Origin: a virus
Reading direction: 5' to 3' (one strand)
Virus record (IMG/VR): IMGVR_UViG_3300017527_000089
Coordinates: 1 to 26,278 of that record
DNA length: 26,278 nucleotides
In this document: piece by piece, positions 17,026-24,511 of the stretch
Numbering within the stretch: the first letter of the stretch is position 1
Layout: each line of letters opens with the position of its first letter
The notes under the pieces: model-generated
Databases searched by the model: none
What the model was told of the DNA's origin: nothing
The model's input: only the letters and a program-made list of their open reading frames with translations
Made by a program: the position numbers and the translations under genes

Positions 17026-17460
17026 GCTTTTTACTCCACTCTACCCATCCTGAATATTCCGCAATTGACATTTCCATGACTTGCGCCACAGTCATGCCGA
17101 GCATGGAGGCCATATCAAACAGCCCGCCAAGCTCATTTATGGCTTTTTTTCGTCGCCTTCCTCTGGATCTCCAATAGATATGATCTCTTCAACCAACCGA
17201 TTGATAATGGAAACCTCACCATGAGAAACCATCGCCGAGAAATCGAATTCGTCAAACATCGGTGTACCGTCTTCTTTCTTCGCCCGCACTTGGATAAGAC
17301 GACACGCCTGGCGGAATTGATCCTTTTCCGCCAGGATTGCCGCTGATTGACCAACCGTAGCAGGTCGCACATAGATCGTTACGCCCCACTCAGGGATTTC
17401 TAATGATCCCAGGGTAAGCCCTGCATAATGCTGCTTAACCTTCTCGGCAAATGCACTCAT
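16985..17460 (-). CDS. Tail chaperone GT-type product made by -1 frameshift
   Basis: Slipping back one base at A AAA AAG (17143-17149) joins the first 106 residues of the shorter frame to a 52-residue extension, AINELGGLFDMASMLGMTVA followed by QVMEMSIAEYSGWVEWSKKR. That extension is typical of gpGT-type tail assembly chaperones (MTVxQVMEMSIxEYxGW). It has no start codon of its own that makes sense. The product would be 158 aa. It lies between the tail tube and the tape measure, the classical position, and its end overlaps the tape measure start. An SD-like AGAGGAAGG upstream supports the slip. Seen in sequence: the heptamer and open frame; the frequency is unknown. Confidence 0.85.
17137..17460 (-). 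CDS. Tail assembly chaperone G-type, zero-frame
   Basis: The 107-aa protein starts MSAFAEKVKQHYAGLTLGSL and looks like a phage tail chaperone: EIPEWGVTIYVRPATVGQSA, then CRLIQVRAKKEDGTPMFDEF, and FSAMVSHGEVSIINRLVEEI near the C-terminus, before EEGDEKKP. It is expected to coat the tape measure during tail assembly and to be present in excess over the frameshifted form. The start at 17460 overlaps the tail tube stop (ATGA); an in-frame start at 17505 would run deep into it. Its last codons make up the slippery site. Confidence 0.87.
   Translation of the reverse strand: MSAFAEKVKQHYAGLTLGSLEIPEWGVTIYVRPATVGQSAAILAEKDQFRQACRLIQVRAKKEDGTPMFDEFDFSAMVSHGEVSIINRLVEEIISIGDPEEGDEKKP
17143..17164 (-). 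promoter_or_regulatory. Programmed -1 frameshift site of the tail chaperone
   Basis: On the minus strand A AAA AAG (17149-17143) is the most slippery bacterial heptamer and is in the zero frame. AGAGGAAGG (17164-17156) stands nine bases upstream, the spacing of the SD-like stimulator in E. coli dnaX. The zero-frame stop TAA comes one codon later. Confidence 0.85.
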
Positions 17461-17889: not shown

Positions 17890-18357
17890 TCATATCACGC
17901 CGTAAGGCATTTGAATTAAACATGTAAACTCTACAGACACCGATACCGTGTCTCCTCCAGGTTCAGGGTATTCCACCGTTCGCCCTGAATAACCAAAATC
18001 CAGAGCCAGCCCGCTTAACGTCCTGTCGGCAACATTAAGCGTAGCATTGAATATGTCTTGAAATAATAAATGCGCGGTTAGTGTTACCTCTGCATCGACA
18101 TAGCGAATAAACGAATCGACATTAATTCGCATTGTCGTATGTATTGGTTCCGCGCCCCATCCTGTCGTCTCATCTGCCTCATCAGAGGTGTCGTATATGT
18201 TTAAGACTGGGCCTGTGTCAACATCGTCAGGGTTGGCCTTGCGCATACCCAGGTGCACCTGATTACCGGCGTTAGTGTTATACCCATTGGCAACCGTTAT
18301 AGCTTCAAGCCTTGTTTGTATTGCATCCAATACTTGATAAGTCACAGGGTTTGTCAT
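17890..18357 (-). CDS. Tail terminator-like protein (U-type)
   Basis: The 155-aa protein starts MTNPVTYQVLDAIQTRLEAI and has a mixed alpha/beta pattern: TGPVLNIYDTSDEADETTGW, then HTTMRINVDSFIR and a C-terminal strand SVSVEFTCLIQMPYG. The N-terminal helix beginning with VLDAIQTRLEAI and the later strands are common in tail completion proteins of the U/gp17 type that cap the tube before it joins the head. The gene order (connector, this, tube, chaperone) supports it. It is coupled to its neighbour by ATGA. The family call rests mainly on position. Confidence 0.7.
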   Translation of the reverse strand: MTNPVTYQVLDAIQTRLEAITVANGYNTNAGNQVHLGMRKANPDDVDTGPVLNIYDTSDEADETTGWGAEPIHTTMRINVDSFIRYVDAEVTLTAHLLFQDIFNATLNVADRTLSGLALDFGYSGRTVEYPEPGGDTVSVSVEFTCLIQMPYGVI

Positions 18358-18668
18358 CTAGCCTGCTCCGTTAAAACCAGCGCCCATTCGGTATTGTTTT
18401 TTCTCTCAACACTATCCACGACATAAACCTTTGTGCTTGCCAGTGTAAGCAAGTCACCACGCCCCGGCATAGTTATGTCGCTCACCTTTACATGCGCAGT
18501 GGCTAACGCTTCCGATGTTTCACTTGCAACACCAAACAACGAATTTCCATCGTCAAATATTGAATAAATCGAGACAGCAGTCTCACCTACCTCCTTATAG
18601 GTCACAAGCTGACCAAGGCCAGAATAAACAGCATCAACCATTGCTGACTCTGTGTTTTCCCAGCTCAT
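18354..18668 (-). CDS. Head-tail joining protein (FII-like)
   Basis: The 104-aa protein starts MSWENTESAMVDAVYSGLGQ and has a beta-rich second half with ITMPGRGDLLTLASTKVYVV followed by WALVLTEQAR, similar to the lambda FII/Phage_attach family, whose beta-barrel joins the head connector to the tail. The start overlaps the frameshift-extended gene's TGA (ATGA), and the stop overlaps the next start. This gene order fits a neck protein. By eye only. Confidence 0.72.
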   Translation of the reverse strand: MSWENTESAMVDAVYSGLGQLVTYKEVGETAVSIYSIFDDGNSLFGVASETSEALATAHVKVSDITMPGRGDLLTLASTKVYVVDSVERKNNTEWALVLTEQAR

Positions 18669-19080
18669 TTATGCTTCCTCAAAATATCCTCAACCATGTC
18701 GCCTGCCATCTCGGTCCAGCGGTACACATCATCTGAATCTGGCTTGGTCTGCTGCTGGTTGCCGGGGTCACCCTCGATGGTCCCAATCAACAGCCCCAAT
18801 TCAACACCGTGCTTGTCGATGAACCACTGGCTGACCCTTAGCGGGTCGGGTTTCCCTTTGGCTTATCACCAAGTCCGGGCATTTTCCCGAGCGCTTCTTT
18901 TGCCTTGGCGCCTTCATTTGCCACCGTTACCACGGCTCCAGCAAGCCCCATGCTTAGAGCGTTCGCCTGGGCATTAGCCATGCCGTACCATTCTGCAGTG
19001 ACGTAACTAATACGCTCCTCGGCTTCATTAAACTGCTCAGCCACAACCTTAACCACTTCACCTTTTGCATTTTCACTCAT
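18665..19080 (-). CDS. Candidate -1 frameshift product, possible head-tail protein
   Basis: Slipping back one base at 18847-18859 would join 76-78 residues of the short frame to an open 60-62-residue extension, KPDPLRVSQWFIDKHGVELG followed by LLIGTIEGDPGNQQQTKPDS and ending MAGDMVEDILRKHK. The extension has no usable ATG at its start, yet ends in an ATGA overlap with the FII-like gene, as real genes here do, and it looks protein-like. The joined product is 138 aa. An ordinary frameshift mutation that split one gene is the main alternative; translation starting at TTG codons inside the extension is a third. Located in the head-tail connector area, so it may be a connector. No family recognised. 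Confidence 0.55.
18833..18859 (-). promoter_or_regulatory. Candidate -1 frameshift signal, twin heptamers plus hairpin
   Basis: In the zero frame A AAG GGA (18859-18853) and A AAC CCG (18853-18847) are two overlapping X-XXY-YYZ heptamers. A hairpin, GACCC-GCTAA-GGGTC (18847-18833), begins five bases after the first, in the usual spacing for a stimulator, and its loop holds the zero-frame stop TAA. Confidence 0.5.
18838..19080 (-). CDS. Zero-frame product, small helical late protein
   Basis: The 80-aa protein starts MSENAKGEVVKVVAEQFNEA and is almost entirely helical; the middle (YGMANAQANALSMGLAGAVV) is Ala/Gly-rich. It ends GDKPKGNPTR. ATG 19080 overlaps the stop of the membrane micro-protein upstream (ATGA). 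The A-N-x-Q-A pattern is shared with the protein from 19221-19505 (SLANTQAMNQLRMTLLG), suggesting a distant relation. Its last codons are the slippery sites of the extension. If the gene is really one frame broken by an indel, this is its N-terminal part. Confidence 0.6.
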   Translation of the reverse strand: MSENAKGEVVKVVAEQFNEAEERISYVTAEWYGMANAQANALSMGLAGAVVTVANEGAKAKEALGKMPGLGDKPKGNPTR

Positions 19081-19217
19081 CTTGAATACCCCATTTGATA
19101 TGCTTGCATTCGCAGGAATGTTTCAAACATACCTGCCCAATTCGGTAAAAAAACGAGGGCAGCAAGCAAGGCTATTAGCCCCGCAGTCACTAGCACTTGC
19201 TCGCCGCCCCTACTCAT
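19077..19217 (-). CDS. 46-aa single-helix membrane protein, lysis region
   Basis: The frame starts MSRGGEQVLVTAGLIALLAA and continues LVFLPNWAGMFETFLRMQAY, one TM helix (about 8-25) followed by an amphipathic helix. The start lies just past the upstream TAA and its stop overlaps the next ATG (ATGA), so the frame is well supported. It could be an antiholin or small membrane partner of lysis, by position only. Confidence 0.65.
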   Translation of the reverse strand: MSRGGEQVLVTAGLIALLAALVFLPNWAGMFETFLRMQAYQMGYSR

Positions 19218-19220
19218 TTC

Positions 19221-19505
19221 TTAACCCGTTACCGGGGGAGTCGTCTGGAACATCTTAGCGAGCATCCCCAGCGCAGCAACGTCTTGCCCACCTTCTGCCG
19301 GACTGACGGAGATAATCGACTCCGACACTTTACCCAGCAAGGTCATACGCAACTGGTTCATTGCCTGCGTATTCGCCAAAGATTCGGCGTATCCGGCATT
19401 GGTATAGAATGCGGGGCCATTACCCTTGACCACCAAATCCGTCGCAGCGACTGCTTCGGATTGTTCCTTTACGACTTCTGAGCTGTCATTTGCTGAATCA
19501 GCCAT
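19221..19505 (-). CDS. Small late protein, RebB-like pattern uncertain
   Basis: The protein starts MADSANDSSEVVKEQSEAVA and includes VVKGNGPAFYTNAGYAESLA, followed by NTQAMNQLRMTLLGKVSESI, and ends MFQTTPPVTG. The GNGPAFYTN...NTQAMNQL pattern recalls the RebB/killing-trait family of R-body-associated small proteins, but the match is from memory. ATG 19505 has an excellent SD (AGAGGTG, six bases away). The frame continues upstream to a TTG at 19652 through a Trp-rich segment (LRQWLLLWWIFHSLAPQRGR); that extended form would be 143 aa with an N-terminal membrane segment, overlapping the holin-endolysin stop. Both starts may be used; the internal one is better supported. Confidence 0.6.
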   Translation of the reverse strand: MADSANDSSEVVKEQSEAVAATDLVVKGNGPAFYTNAGYAESLANTQAMNQLRMTLLGKVSESIISVSPAEGGQDVAALGMLAKMFQTTPPVTG

Positions 19506-19641
19506 GTCATTCACCTCTACAAAATCGGCCTCCCGCAAAGCCTCATCATTAGAGGCTGCTGCCCTACCTCGCTGCGGGGCGAGGCTGTGGAAAATCCACC
19601 AGAGCAGCAACCACTGTCGGAGCGTTATCTCTGCTCCAAAT

Positions 19642-20430
19642 TCATCCGCCAATCATCTCGCCAAGGAAAAAGCCCTTGGGGTCATACTCAACATGGATGT
19701 GCGCGCCTCCGGTGGCTCCGCCCTCAAAGATCACGTCGTAATCCTCACCAAGCGCGGTACTCAGCGCAGCCGTTACGGCCTGTGGGTCGCTCAAGGTGCG
19801 CGAACGTAGATCCAGGGCAAGCCCTTCATCGTGCAGCGACTTATCCGACTTTGGCCGGATAGCCGAGGTAATCACGAGAGGTACACCACGAGCGTTATAT
19901 AAATTGCGAGCAGCAGTAATAACTGGAGCCATGTGTTTGATATCCAGGCCATCGATTACCACACCTACTTTTAATTGCACATCTGGGAATTTATCTTGCA
20001 GCCAATCAGATGCCTTGCGCTTGTTCAGTACCAGCTTTGTCGCGGCCTCTGCTGCATTACCGAACCCCTTGTCTTTGCGCCAATGGTGTTCGACCCTGCC
20101 ACCAAAATAAAACATGATGACGGTCGTCAATAGCCACCACATCGGCTCAGGAATGGTCTGCAACCCGCCGTTGATCACGGCCAACTGCGCCGGATCGTTC
20201 CAACTCATATAGAAATAGGAACCGATCATCGCAAGTGCTGCGGGCCTGGGCAGACGGTTGATGCCGTCAATCAGGGAATCGAACCACGTGCGTCCGTTGC
20301 CGAACTCGGCGGCGAACTGCTGCAGGCTCGCCATCTCTTCAGCATGCGCGTTATCCTCTTGGGCGGCTTTACCCTTCTGATAGCCGCCAACGAGGTCGCC
20401 AATGATTGGGATCACAGACCAGAAGCTCAT
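19642..20430 (-). CDS. Fused GTA-type holin and M15 peptidase endolysin
   Basis: This 262-aa protein joins two lysis functions. Residues 1-118 match the GTA 3TM holin: GNGRTWFDSLIDGINRLPRP (45-64), TM segments about 64-77 and 97-113, and EPMWWLLTTVIMFYFGGRVE. Residues 145-262 carry a zinc peptidase of the M15 (D-Ala-D-Ala carboxypeptidase/endolysin) type: the SxHxxGxAxD motif SLHDEGLALD (H200, D207) and HIHVEY (H244, H246). Catalytic zinc ligands are intact. With N-in and three helices the peptidase would face the periplasm, so the fusion would be a membrane-tethered lysin that needs no export. The ATG at 20430 overlaps the micro-protein before it (ATGA). Confidence 0.88.
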   Translation of the reverse strand: MSFWSVIPIIGDLVGGYQKGKAAQEDNAHAEEMASLQQFAAEFGNGRTWFDSLIDGINRLPRPAALAMIGSYFYMSWNDPAQLAVINGGLQTIPEPMWWLLTTVIMFYFGGRVEHHWRKDKGFGNAAEAATKLVLNKRKASDWLQDKFPDVQLKVGVVIDGLDIKHMAPVITAARNLYNARGVPLVITSAIRPKSDKSLHDEGLALDLRSRTLSDPQAVTAALSTALGEDYDVIFEGGATGGAHIHVEYDPKGFFLGEMIGG

Positions 20431-20510
20431 ATTAATCCGCTTTCAAAAAGTGAAAACACAACAAGACCAAGAACCACAATATTAGTAAGACGTAAAAAAG
20501 CATCGGTCAT
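20427..20510 (-). CDS. 27-aa membrane micro-protein
   Basis: The frame starts MTDAFLRLTNIVVLGLVVFS and is one hydrophobic helix of about 17 residues ending in ESGLI. It starts in the preceding stop (ATGA) and stops in the next start (ATGA), the same double overlap as real genes here. A length of 27 aa is close to the limit of what can be supported without data. Confidence 0.5.
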   Translation of the reverse strand: MTDAFLRLTNIVVLGLVVFSLFESGLI

Positions 20511-20629
20511 ACGATCAGCCCTATCACCAGAACAACAGCGCCACCCAGCAAGAACGCACCACCCACCGTCCGTAGAGGATGGTCAGCAATCATGTGCAAA
20601 ATCTTCGCCTCAAAGTCTCGCCTGTTCAT
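20507..20629 (-). CDS. 40-aa membrane micro-protein
   Basis: The frame starts MNRRDFEAKILHMIADHPLR, then one TM helix (TVGGAFLLGGAVVLVIGLIV). GAGGTG lies five bases before the ATG at 20629, and both ends overlap neighbours as ATGA. The basic amphipathic N-terminus and C-terminal TM suggest a small holin-type or regulatory membrane protein. Confidence 0.65.
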   Translation of the reverse strand: MNRRDFEAKILHMIADHPLRTVGGAFLLGGAVVLVIGLIV

Positions 20630-20883
20630 TCTGGCACCTCACAATTTATCTGATCGATGTAAAGCTCCCCGGCAATCTCATTCTGTTGAAAACATAGCTC
20701 GCTTAGCAGTTTGTCCCTACGCTCGCCCATTGCGGCGGTATTCCTGCCGCCAATATTCATGAACGTACGTACCTCATTGAAGAAGTCGTCATGATAATGT
20801 TGTTCGGTAGAATCACTGATTGCATCCCAAACTGACAACACAAGAATGATGGCAATCAGACTCCCTGTAATCCACTGCTTCAT
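20626..20883 (-). CDS. 85-aa protein with N-terminal membrane anchor, possible spanin
   Basis: The protein starts MKQWITGSLIAIILVLSVWD, an N-terminal TM anchor (residues 4-20), followed by a hydrophilic mostly helical periplasmic part (DDFFNEVRTFMNIGGRNTAA, then RRDKLLSELCFQQNEIAGEL). An inner-membrane spanin (Rz-like) would have such a layout; the coiled coil is short, so other roles are possible. Start ATG 20883 was picked over 20895 for its ATGA overlap with the upstream stop. Located between a coiled-coil membrane protein and the holin-lysin. Confidence 0.6.
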   Translation of the reverse strand: MKQWITGSLIAIILVLSVWDAISDSTEQHYHDDFFNEVRTFMNIGGRNTAAMGERRDKLLSELCFQQNEIAGELYIDQINCEVPE

Positions 20884-21080
20884 GATCCCACCCACGCTTT
20901 CAGGTCTGGGTAGAATTGCATCAAGGCAATCGCCCCAACCAAGCCCCAGATGATCCGCTCAAGATATACAAACCTGTCCTCGTGCCCGTTCAACCGCTCA
21001 GAATGCTGGGCAACCATCGCTTCGATTGCCTCGATTTTCCCGTCACGTAGCCCAGCCTGATAGTCATGCTCTGTGTTCAT
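20880..21080 (-). CDS. XhlA-like coiled-coil membrane protein
   Basis: The 66-aa form starts MNTEHDYQAGLRDGKIEAIE and has a helix with heptad spacing (AMVAQHSERLNGHEDRFVYL) followed by one TM helix (IIWGLVGAIALMQFY) and a short tail. This order, an amphipathic helix then a TM near the end, recalls XhlA/haemolysin-type phage lysis accessory proteins. A GTG at 21119, directly after the upstream stop, would give 79 aa; neither start has a strong SD. It sits at the head of the lysis cluster. Confidence 0.6.
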   Translation of the reverse strand: MNTEHDYQAGLRDGKIEAIEAMVAQHSERLNGHEDRFVYLERIIWGLVGAIALMQFYPDLKAWVGS

Positions 21081-21119
21081 AGTTATTACTTTTTGACCGC
21101 CATGCGTTTCTATGTCCAC

Positions 21120-21629
21120 CTAGATTCTTACAGCACGGAATTGACCATTGCGCAGAGTTATCGTTGCGGTCCCGCTTGCACGTACCGCCAAGCCCACGGT
21201 ATCGCCTGCTACGAGGTTCCCAGATGCCACGATACCCATCACCCCATCGCCGCCCGCTGTGAGCGTCCTGCGGCTGCGGTAAGGCGTCAGCCCACCGTTC
21301 TTGGTTACAGCTATTTCCACCCATCCCGCGATGTTAGAAAACAGACCCAGGGAAACGTCCACGGCATAAACCCCATCGGCACCAGCGGCCAGGATGAAAT
21401 GCCCCTGCGTCAGATCTTCGGTCAGTCCCTTCGTGTCAATGGAATTGCTGAACCACTCGAACGGTTGCCATGCGGTAGTGAGGGCAACCGTGTCGTCGTC
21501 GTTGCCGTACAGCGTGCCGCCAACGGAATTGAGCGAGTCAAGTAAGTTGCGCACCTTCTCAGCAGTCACGCCACGCAATTGGCCGTCAGCAAAATCGGTT
21601 GCCAGTTCGTCAGCGGTTTTGATCGTCAT
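21120..21629 (-). CDS. Fiber-like protein with C1q/jelly-roll-type C-terminus
   Basis: The 169-aa protein starts MTIKTADELATDFADGQLRG. The C-terminal two-thirds has the strand pattern of C1q/TNF-like trimers: GVYAVDVSLGLFSNIAGWVE, IAVTKNGG, then LVAGDTVGLAVRASGTATIT and a final strand. The N-terminal helical segment VRNLLDSLN could trimerise. Such domains often end phage fibers and decorations and bind receptors or glycans. It is linked to the preceding gene by ATGA. No database match was made. Confidence 0.65.
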   Translation of the reverse strand: MTIKTADELATDFADGQLRGVTAEKVRNLLDSLNSVGGTLYGNDDDTVALTTAWQPFEWFSNSIDTKGLTEDLTQGHFILAAGADGVYAVDVSLGLFSNIAGWVEIAVTKNGGLTPYRSRRTLTAGGDGVMGIVASGNLVAGDTVGLAVRASGTATITLRNGQFRAVRI

Positions 21630-22084
21630 AGAAACTCACCCGTAAATTCGTTTGAAAACTCACCAGCAAAGATACGTGGTGATTGACCTAGGAAAACATG
21701 CGCCCAGTTGGGATTCTCGATGGTCGGTGGTGTAGAGCCAGTTGGATTGCCGTCCTGATCGTATGTGACATGATCCTTCATCAGCGCCAGCACTTCTGTC
21801 GGGTCTGTCGGCCAGAAGTCGAGCGAGTCTGTAGCCGGACCTTGCTCCCATGAATACGAAGCAGCAACGCTGCCTGCTGTGTGCGCCTCTAAGGCGTCAA
21901 TCAAAGCCTGTATTGCTTCGGTGCCGCCTATGACGTTGTAGACTTCACGGCTCCCAGAAGACTTCCAAAAGCCTGTCACCGCGTTGTCGTAGGTATAAGC
22001 CCAGACCGGCGGGGTCTCCCCTTCTAGCGGGGCTATGGCATCCCAGGTCGAGGGCGTGCAAATGATCCAAGTGTCTTTGCTCAT
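21626..22084 (-). CDS. Small late protein between fiber-like genes
   Basis: The 152-aa protein starts MSKDTWIICTPSTWDAIAPL and includes VWAYTYDNAVTGFWKSSGSR and LIDALEAHTAGSVAASYSWE, ending EFSNEFTGEFL. It is aromatic-rich and probably beta-rich. No family was recognised. It lies two bases downstream of the large fiber-like gene and overlaps the jelly-roll protein by ATGA, so the three probably form one assembly. It may be a fiber chaperone or a decoration protein; this is by position. A second in-frame ATG at 22108 would overlap the previous gene. Confidence 0.6.
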   Translation of the reverse strand: MSKDTWIICTPSTWDAIAPLEGETPPVWAYTYDNAVTGFWKSSGSREVYNVIGGTEAIQALIDALEAHTAGSVAASYSWEQGPATDSLDFWPTDPTEVLALMKDHVTYDQDGNPTGSTPPTIENPNWAHVFLGQSPRIFAGEFSNEFTGEFL

Positions 22085-22086
22085 GG

Positions 22087-24051
22087 CTAGAAATTGTCCT
22101 CGATCCAATCGGTGCCTTCATCGGTGTTGTAGACTGCAATTGACTCAATCAATAACGGCCCCGCTGTATTCCCTTGGCCTATTGAAACCCGGTCGTTTGA
22201 CACAAACGCCCCATCATAATTATTTTCACTCCCCCAAGACCATGACCCAGCTTTATTTCTGCCCATTCCGTACTTCGTCGAATTCCAGTATGTGGCGATG
22301 AACATATCTGTATCAGCAGAAATCGAATGTGCAATAAATCCATTCGTTGACCCATCATTTACTTTGAAATTCGTAAGATCAAAATATTGCCATGTGTAAG
22401 GCGTTGCTGATGACGCAGACAGAATCCCGAAATTGCCTGCAGGGATACTTGCCGCATCGAAGCCGAATTGCAGCTTGCAAATAGCCATACCCTCACTCTG
22501 CGGCGTGGTCAGCGGGTAGCTAAGCGTGTCAGCGACGCGGGTTGCTGCTGCGCCAGCCGTTTCAATGAACGAGGTTGGCACCGATCCGGCCTCAAGCTGG
22601 AATCGATCAGGCGAGCCGGTAACGGTTACCGTTACCGTTCCTGCGCCTGTCACCGTGAACAGGTCAGGCGTTCCGTCGGTTGCCGTACCTCCGCCCGTTA
22701 TCGTGGCCGTGCCAGCAGTGACTGCGACAGAATCAGAACCTTCCATCCAGCACACATAATCGCCGGTCCCTAGTGATCCAGTTGTCTGCGTTGCGGGCGC
22801 GGTTGAATTGAGTAGTTGATTCGTCGCCGCAGGCTCCATCAGCAGACTTGGCGCGGGCGATATGAGTGCGCCGGTCGCCTCGGTGACTACGTTACTTGCG
22901 ACTGTATTGCCATTCACTCGCGGCGAGAACAGGACGCCATCGACAAATGCTCCGTGTGAGGCTTCTTTGACAGACACGTTATCAAGAACAAGCGAGCCAC
23001 TCGTCTGCGTATTGTTTAAAAGAAGTCGCAAATCATTTGTGCTTGCGGCAACCTCAACAAGAGTATGCGTTCCAACCGTGGAGGGTGCTGTATCTGTCGA
23101 CCCAGTAAAGCCCAATGATGAAATTAAAAACTGCTGCCCTGTCCCAACCAAAGAATTACTTACCACCTCATACACAATCACATAAGTTTTCCCAACAATT
23201 GCGCCAACATCTTGCTGAAATACCGCGTTATATGTGCCGTTCCCAGTGAGTGTCAGCACACCACCTGAAACGCTTGCTTGTGAACCAAGCGTCCACTCGC
23301 CGGCATCATCAAATCCGCCATCAGTTACAAGCTCATCACCCGTAGCCACCCCAACGGAAACATAAGAACCAGGGAGTGTCGGGTCGTCTGAACCTGTGGT
23401 GTTTTCGGCTTGCGCTTCCGTAACAGTAACTTCGGTTGCAGTTAACCCAGCCGCTTTTAGTATTGAAATTGTTGCATCACCTGTATCAGTTGCGGCGAAT
23501 GATGCGGCAACTGAATAAACAGTTGGAGTGCTTGTCAAAGTGATATTGATACCACTTACTTCGCCAATCGCATTGCTTATGATTCTTAGCCTAGTTGTTC
23601 CAGCTCCCGATAACTTAACCCTAACAACAAATGATAAACTTTCTGGATTTATAAAAAATTTACTATATAGCTGATCGTTTGTGGCGGGCAGAGAAACTGT
23701 ATCTGCCGCAGTAGCAGAAGCTGTTCCTGACGTTATCCAACTAGCGTCCTGTAAATCTTCTGAAGCGGTTACAAGATTCCGCACCACCCGCGCCCCATCG
23801 AAGCGGGCGGCGTTTGCTGGTACTTCGCGCAGGATATCCTCATGGTCTGTCACCATCGCGGTACTGGCACGAGCGTATGTGGCGTCTGCGCCTAAGCTGG
23901 TGTCGGTGGAGAATAGGCGCTGGAATAGGGCTCTGACACTAACCATCGAAGCAAAAGGCGCTAGCAAGCCCATTGCCTCCGCCTCTGTCTGGTGCGTTGA
24001 GTCCTCAAGCAAACCCAGCTTCAGAAACTTATTGTTATGCAGCCACGGCAT
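22087..24051 (-). CDS. Large fiber/appendage-like protein with repeated CBM-like beta domains
   Basis: This 654-aa protein starts MPWLHNNKFLKLGLLEDSTH and has ATYARASTAMVTDHEDILRE, then VPANAARFDGARVVRNLVTA (residues 57-96), an arrangement common at the start of phage spike and appendage proteins. The rest is Thr/Ser/Gly-rich and beta-predicted, with two CBM4-like jelly-roll segments, around residues 90-230 and 240-365 (ELVTDGGFDDAGEWTLGSQA is typical), and a C-terminal lectin-like part ending ESIAVYNTDEGTDWIEDNF. It is likely to bind glycan. Its place right behind the capsid genes and a terminator, far from the tail tip, is unusual for a tail fiber and suggests a capsid-borne or separate appendage. 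The SD is GGGGTGG. Confidence 0.7.
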   Translation of the reverse strand: MPWLHNNKFLKLGLLEDSTHQTEAEAMGLLAPFASMVSVRALFQRLFSTDTSLGADATYARASTAMVTDHEDILREVPANAARFDGARVVRNLVTASEDLQDASWITSGTASATAADTVSLPATNDQLYSKFFINPESLSFVVRVKLSGAGTTRLRIISNAIGEVSGINITLTSTPTVYSVAASFAATDTGDATISILKAAGLTATEVTVTEAQAENTTGSDDPTLPGSYVSVGVATGDELVTDGGFDDAGEWTLGSQASVSGGVLTLTGNGTYNAVFQQDVGAIVGKTYVIVYEVVSNSLVGTGQQFLISSLGFTGSTDTAPSTVGTHTLVEVAASTNDLRLLLNNTQTSGSLVLDNVSVKEASHGAFVDGVLFSPRVNGNTVASNVVTEATGALISPAPSLLMEPAATNQLLNSTAPATQTTGSLGTGDYVCWMEGSDSVAVTAGTATITGGGTATDGTPDLFTVTGAGTVTVTVTGSPDRFQLEAGSVPTSFIETAGAAATRVADTLSYPLTTPQSEGMAICKLQFGFDAASIPAGNFGILSASSATPYTWQYFDLTNFKVNDGSTNGFIAHSISADTDMFIATYWNSTKYGMGRNKAGSWSWGSENNYDGAFVSNDRVSIGQGNTAGPLLIESIAVYNTDEGTDWIEDNF

Positions 24052-24079
24052 ACACCACCCCTAAGATGAATAACGCTTG

Positions 24080-24104
24080 AAAACCCCCGGCATTGCGCCG
24101 GGGG
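24080..24104 (-). terminator. Terminator after the capsid/decoration genes
   Basis: On the minus strand CCCCCGGC and GCCGGGGG form a perfect 8-bp stem with a 5-base loop, followed by TTTTC. It lies 28 bases before the 24051 start, between the decoration protein and the fiber-like gene. The T-run is short (four), so readthrough is likely and no new promoter was seen, suggesting that capsid genes are expressed more than those downstream. Confidence 0.7.
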
Positions 24105-24115
24105 ATCAATACGCA

Positions 24116-24511
24116 TTAACTGGTTGCGTAAGCACCATTGCCAGGCAGCAACTTAACTACCACCGTGGTGGCAGTACCAGCCGCCGCTTTTGCATCCATC
24201 GCAATGCCAAAATCTTCAACATCGCCGCCGGTTGCGGTATGAGCGTTATCCTCAACCTTGGCAATTGACGAATCCCAGTTGACGGTCTCACCTTGCACGA
24301 TAACCGCGCCAGTAGCAGCAGGCATCGTATAGACACCTTCGATACTGCAAGCAATAACGTCACCAGTAGCACCGGCAACCTGAGCAACACCAACGCTGCA
24401 CCCTGCAGCATTGGTCGAACCAAACACGCGAATCTCATCAACCACGACCGCACCCGTACAAGTGTAATCAATGGTGGACTTTTCGCCCTTTACATAAGTG
24501 GCTGTAGCCAT
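24116..24511 (-). CDS. DUF2190-type capsid decoration protein
   Basis: The 131-aa protein starts MATATYVKGEKSTIDYTCTG and is Gly/Ala/Val-rich and beta-predicted: AVVVDEIRVFGSTNAAG, then VAQVAGATGDVIACSIEGVY, and DFGIAMDAKAAAGTATTVVV near the end. This is the DUF2190 pattern found next to phage major capsid genes, now taken as a capsid decoration/stabilising protein. GGAG lies eight bases before ATG 24511. Its position directly downstream of the capsid gene is standard. Confidence 0.87.
   Translation of the reverse strand: MATATYVKGEKSTIDYTCTGAVVVDEIRVFGSTNAAGCSVGVAQVAGATGDVIACSIEGVYTMPAATGAVIVQGETVNWDSSIAKVEDNAHTATGGDVEDFGIAMDAKAAAGTATTVVVKLLPGNGAYATS

Follow-up and report, generated by a model that had tools for sequence, protein, structure and literature searches.

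The window (the whole stretch of DNA analysed here, 26,278 nt in length) represents a fragment (26 kb) of the genome of an uncultured tailed phage, whose tail is GTA-like (DUF2460, a phiJL001 gp84-like hub, NlpC/P60 and an Rcc01698-like protein) and whose capsid is of the Phage_capsid_4 / Mu gpT type. A sequence-only reading had placed a candidate -1 frameshift in the neck/lysis region of this phage, and its position between the lysis genes and the head closure gene is borne out. The genes that surround the candidate are the following:

18354..18668, minus strand: Hc1 / Phage_attach head closure gene, downstream of the candidate (PF05354, E 9.5e-7; PHROG 82, E 2e-4)
19077..19217, minus strand: gene upstream of the candidate for a 46-aa protein starting MSRGGEQVLVTAGLIALLAALVFLPNWAG, with one transmembrane helix apparent from the sequence
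19221-19652, minus strand: 143-aa orphan, upstream of the candidate
19642..20430, minus strand: lysis gene, GTA_holin_3TM (PF11351, E 3e-14) with an apparent M15-like peptidase C-terminus

Past Hc1, the gene order continues with the tail terminator and then the major tail protein. On the other side, the 46-aa protein is holin-like in size, and the stop of its gene overlaps the ATG at 19080 of the candidate. This small membrane protein gene, located between the lysis gene region and the frameshift candidate, is shorter than the usual ORF cut-offs. In the product of 19642-20430, holin and endolysin apparently form one polypeptide; its C-terminus shows a weak PHROG endolysin match, and its nearest phage matches are Microviridae proteins (36-41% identity). 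The C-terminal part of the 143-aa orphan resembles, by eye, RebB (R-body) proteins. A RebB likeness of this orphan and of the zero-frame protein described below received no support from Pfam, although the RebB search was silent in every control genome as well.

The candidate gene itself consists of an 80-codon ORF and an open -1 frame, which overlap by only about 8 codons, with two slippery heptamers inside the overlap:

19080 (ATG) to 18840-18838 (TAA), that is 18838..19080, minus strand: zero-frame ORF, 80 aa
18870-18865, minus strand: SD-like GGTGAT, candidate stimulator, 5 nt upstream of AAAGGGA
18859-18853, minus strand: slippery heptamer A_AAG_GGA, in phase, an E. coli high-level motif according to PMC4066793
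18853-18847, minus strand: second heptamer A_AAC_CCG, in phase, covering the first base of the hairpin
18847-18833, minus strand: 5-bp hairpin GACCC-GCTAA-GGGTC (15 nt, -7.8 kcal/mol)
18665..18853, minus strand: -1 extension, 62 codons plus TGA, assessed by codon log-odds
18799-18797, minus strand: TTG, rival start of a 44-aa gene, with GGTG (18808-18805) 5 nt upstream (-5.6 kcal/mol)

The zero-frame ORF starts behind an SD of -6.1 kcal/mol and ends, in its own frame, with CCA AAG GGA AAC CCG ACC CGC TAA. The two heptamers share one base and are both in X_XXY_YYZ phase, as had been described. A hairpin five nucleotides past AAAGGGA, with the zero-frame TAA in its loop, had been reported as well and is indeed present. 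The -1 frame is closed just upstream by TGA TAA and is open from about 18862 to the TGA at 18667-18665, which overlaps the ATG (18668) of Hc1, so that the 62 codons after the slip and the ATGA overlap agree with the earlier description. Translation also gives the 138-aa total product that had been announced, with the same length from a slip at either heptamer. The longest homopolymer at the shift site is three bases, and transcriptional slippage was ruled out, given that the site has no homopolymer run.

The -1 shifting of all 64 heptamers has been measured in E. coli (PMC4066793), and A_AA.G_GG.A is among the three motifs that were retained in that study for a genome survey since they 'exhibit high level frameshifting'. 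In the same study, CCN codons shift on average less than UUN and AAN codons. The operative shift site is most likely A_AAG_GGA, and A_AAC_CCG is probably a secondary one. The spacing of the hairpin is right for AAAGGGA only, and AAACCCG overlaps its first base. According to the rules for stimulatory hairpins given in PMC4066793, the structure should start 4-10 nt past the motif, hold a G-C closing pair plus at least 3 more pairs, reach at least 7.6 kcal/mol and measure 17-140 nt. The hairpin of the candidate fits in spacing (5 nt), closing pair (G-C), number of pairs (5 bp) and energy (-7.8 kcal/mol), whereas its 15 nt fall short of the 17-nt minimum. Against shuffled sequences it is ordinary (fold z -0.7 to -1.2).

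The sequence-only reading had missed the element upstream of the heptamers. GGTGAT is a perfect 6-nt complement of the anti-SD (-8.8 kcal/mol). The SDs at those neighbouring gene starts that were checked are weaker (-5.8 to -6.4), and SDs stronger than GGTGAT occur at a few starts elsewhere in the window. No start codon is present at a spacing that GGTGAT could use. Taken from the SD core position, the distance of GGTGAT to the P-site codon amounts to about 10 nt, which is within the range known for dnaX, and also for IS911. GGTGAT is absent from the SD words given as experimentally stimulatory in PMC4066793.

The rarity of this combination has been estimated against 5719 in-phase sites in 20 genes of the candidate's own phage. 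Any X_XXZ_ZZN heptamer was found at 15 of these 5719 sites (0.26%), and one of the 21 motifs chosen as usable in PMC4066793 at 7 of them (0.12%). An SD match at least as strong as GGTGAT lies upstream of 2.8% of gene sites, and a hairpin passing the energy rule lies downstream of 16%. With about 7 sites available where the frames overlap, the joint chance of heptamer, SD and hairpin is ~4e-5, a figure that stands before multiplication by the 30-40 gene junctions from which the sequence-only reading could choose.

The extension has been examined with codon log-odds, for which 20 genes of the window served as the training set. The 56 codons past the zero-frame stop score 0.18 per codon in the -1 frame (in-frame mean 0.166, sd 0.067), and the out-of-frame windows of equal length all stay below 0.18; therefore, the -1 frame is translated in some way. 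This signal is unevenly distributed. From TTG 18799 onwards, the 44 codons that lead to the stop are clearly coding, score 0.201 and carry the clearest coding signal of the region, while the preceding 20 codons, counted from the heptamer, average -0.066 per codon, a value typical of open non-coding windows and as low as that of only 2.6% of true coding windows. The low score of the first 8 codons of the extension is weak evidence, because they are common to the zero frame and constrained by the heptamers. The 12 codons between the zero-frame stop and the TTG score 0.107 in the -1 frame, with a slight lead over the zero frame when the same codons are summed (1.28 versus 0.77). By codon usage, the stretch from heptamer to TTG is thus ambiguous.

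The best reading of the locus, held with a little more than even confidence, is that -1 programmed frameshifting yields an 80-aa helical protein and a 138-aa fusion. It is favoured since three elements of a frameshift signal come together within the 8-codon overlap or beside it. The efficient heptamer, the SD, the hairpin, the coding-like -1 frame and the similarly built chaperone shift in the same genome have all been counted in its favour, as have the joint rarity of the signal elements and the location of the shift site in a predicted disordered linker. What has been counted against it is that no homologue turned up in the searches described below, that codon usage before the TTG is not clearly coding, that the hairpin is short and ordinary against shuffles, that GGTGAT is not a listed stimulatory word, and that phage frameshift genes other than the tail chaperone are uncommon. 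Frameshifting at A_AAG_GGA is regarded as plausible and unproven: the sequence elements, their phase and the coding character of the extension taken as a whole have been shown, and we infer the slip, its efficiency, the ratio of the products and their function. It has not been rated higher mainly because of the ambiguous codon usage between the heptamer and the TTG.

That ambiguity bears directly on a serious, if unlikely, rival, according to which the extension is a separate 44-aa gene that starts at TTG 18799 behind the SD GGTG, by ordinary initiation or by coupling, and the heptamers are coincidental. The extension had been said to have no start of its own, which is wrong: the TTG, 38 nt past the zero-frame stop, is in the -1 frame, and GGTG stands at a core-aligned spacing that is normal for initiation. 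These 44 codons carry the clearest coding signal, and 22 open -1 codons upstream of them are expected by chance in 17-29% of cases. However, the separate gene requires TTG as a start codon, its GGTG is equalled in strength at 27% of random sites, and the efficient heptamer, the hairpin and the rarer SD GGTGAT would all remain coincidences. A candidate start codon is present in the extension, though it is not clearly convincing.

The tail assembly chaperone gene of the same phage provides a positive control for the frameshifting reading:

17505-17137, minus strand: tail assembly chaperone gene, with a -1 frameshift and its extension at 17149-17025
17143..17149, minus strand: chaperone heptamer A_AAA_AAG, with SD-like GAGGAAGG 6 nt upstream (-7.3)

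In the related phage L004 (6395-6900), the site is A_AAA_AAC with a homologous -1 extension and an SD-like element 6 nt upstream (-6.0), strong like that of the window, and downstream structure is found at the chaperone sites of both the window phage and L004. Judging from these sequences, the chaperone frameshift of the window would be of the ordinary G-GT type, conserved in L004, and the first of the two frameshift candidates in the sequence-only reading appears to be this ordinary case. It is thus very probable that the chaperone gene of the window phage employs -1 shifting, with SD, heptamer and structure arranged as in the candidate.

The predicted products have also been examined. AlphaFold, run without an alignment, models residues 3-65 of the zero-frame protein as a single helix (pLDDT 84); the tail, starting near residue 66, is predicted to be disordered and contains the shift site. 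For the extension, the model consists of two strands and a helix (pLDDT 71, pTM 0.32), the first strand lying upstream of TTG 18799 with low confidence. This model suits a two-domain fusion and offers weak evidence for it. A fold search with the extension gave no significant match. A weak Pfam match below the cut-off (E 0.003), between the zero-frame protein and a fatty acid synthase helical domain, was set aside, as it looks like an effect of helix composition.

Homologues of the zero-frame protein, the extension or the fusion were not found in plasmids and GenBank phages, nor in IMG/VR and GTDB contigs, where the scans are pattern-based and mainly sensitive to close relatives, and the exact 23-nt shift site has no other occurrence in IMG/VR. 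A search with the capsid profile identified 14 relatives; none of them holds a credible match to either half, and other genes fill the interval there. The closest phage found, IMGVR_UViG_3300028840_000353 (identity of 74% in the capsid and 46% in Hc1), has an intact 117-aa ORF before Hc1 that is unrelated to the candidate, and L002/L004 carry the intact, unrelated 117-aa gene ahead of Hc1. In those Vibrio and Alteromonas phages that the tape measure links to the window phage, adaptor or neck genes occupy the corresponding place, and no kinship of these genes to the candidate was seen in the comparison run. In the sequences compared, the interval between the cement protein and Hc1 is a variable cargo region, wholly different between phages with related capsids. 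Lysis and tail-fibre-like cargo is observed in this interval in the window (18668-24116) and in L002/L004, L010 and L015.

These comparisons bear on another explanation, namely that a one-base indel (a natural mutation, or else an error in sequencing or assembly) has split a single 138-aa gene and that the frame overlap is accidental. It would gain from a relative that encodes the gene as one uninterrupted frame; no such relative has been seen, but neither has any relative of the gene been found at all. That the source is one uncultured contig and that the two-frame form occurs in no relative found count in favour of an indel. Against it, runs of one base at the site do not exceed three, which makes an ordinary sequencing indel unlikely; the frames overlap very briefly, and the heptamer, the SD and the hairpin would all have to be chance. 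An indel is improbable, and a less serious rival than a gene starting at the TTG. A start of the extension at a non-standard codon (such as ATC 18820, for 51 aa, which sits 14 nt past AAGGG), or a region that is partly untranslated, is very improbable, since such codons are very rarely used and ATC 18820 has a weak SD (-5.0), whose zero spacing is unfavourable.

Under programmed frameshifting, the majority of the ribosomes would terminate at the TAA (18838) and release the 80-aa, mostly helical protein. In a minority of them, the anti-SD would hold GGTGAT about 10 nt behind the P site with the hairpin ahead, and the ribosome would slip back one base on A_AAG_GGA, with tRNA-Lys moving from AAG to AAA and tRNA-Gly from GGA to GGG. 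The shifted ribosomes would translate 62 further codons to give the 138-aa fusion, whose layout would be a long helix, a flexible Gly/Pro/Lys linker and a small second domain. The position of the gene suggests an accessory role of its product in the neck or in lysis, with short and long forms made in a fixed ratio. The chances appear evenly balanced that recoding sets a second step of morphogenesis or lysis besides tail assembly in this phage, by means of a fixed ratio of helical protein to fusion and the A_AAG_GGA heptamer.

Such an arrangement resembles the -1 signals of the dnaX/IS911 type in its upstream SD-like element, its in-phase X_XXZ_ZZN heptamer, its hairpin a few nucleotides downstream and the zero-frame stop close behind. 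In contrast to them, the candidate presents A_AAG_GGA instead of A_AAA_AAG, GGTGAT as the SD register and a hairpin of just 5 bp, and it belongs to an orphan phage ORF. With the G-GT chaperone shift of lambda it has in common a phage late gene, a -1 shift close to where the first ORF ends and a minority product extended at its C terminus, whereas it lies between the lysis genes and head closure rather than between the major tail protein and the tape measure, and the proteins are unrelated. As in T7/T3 gene 10, Lactobacillus phage A2 and Listeria PSA/A118, the frameshift would add a small C-terminal domain; instead of a major capsid or tail protein, the core is in this case a short helical protein, and the extension has no Ig-like match. 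Frameshift extensions carried by a fraction of phage capsid or tail proteins have been reviewed (PMC5009743).

In a phage set surveyed in PMC10885494, tail assembly chaperones account for 2397 of the 2476 joined genes, and the phage frameshift genes known otherwise are a few capsid and tail proteins. Against this background, the candidate, which had been put forward as a possible new recoded phage gene, may be hypothesized to be one on the basis of one orphan sequence, and would, if true, be a known kind of recoding in an unusual gene position. It would add a site overlooked by automated gene callers, with a modest effect unless relatives appear. If one phage had two recoded genes, the second of them in the interval from lysis to neck, the range of functions controlled by recoding would widen, and the A_AAG_GGA heptamer of this second gene would differ from the motifs that dominate the known phage and IS cases.
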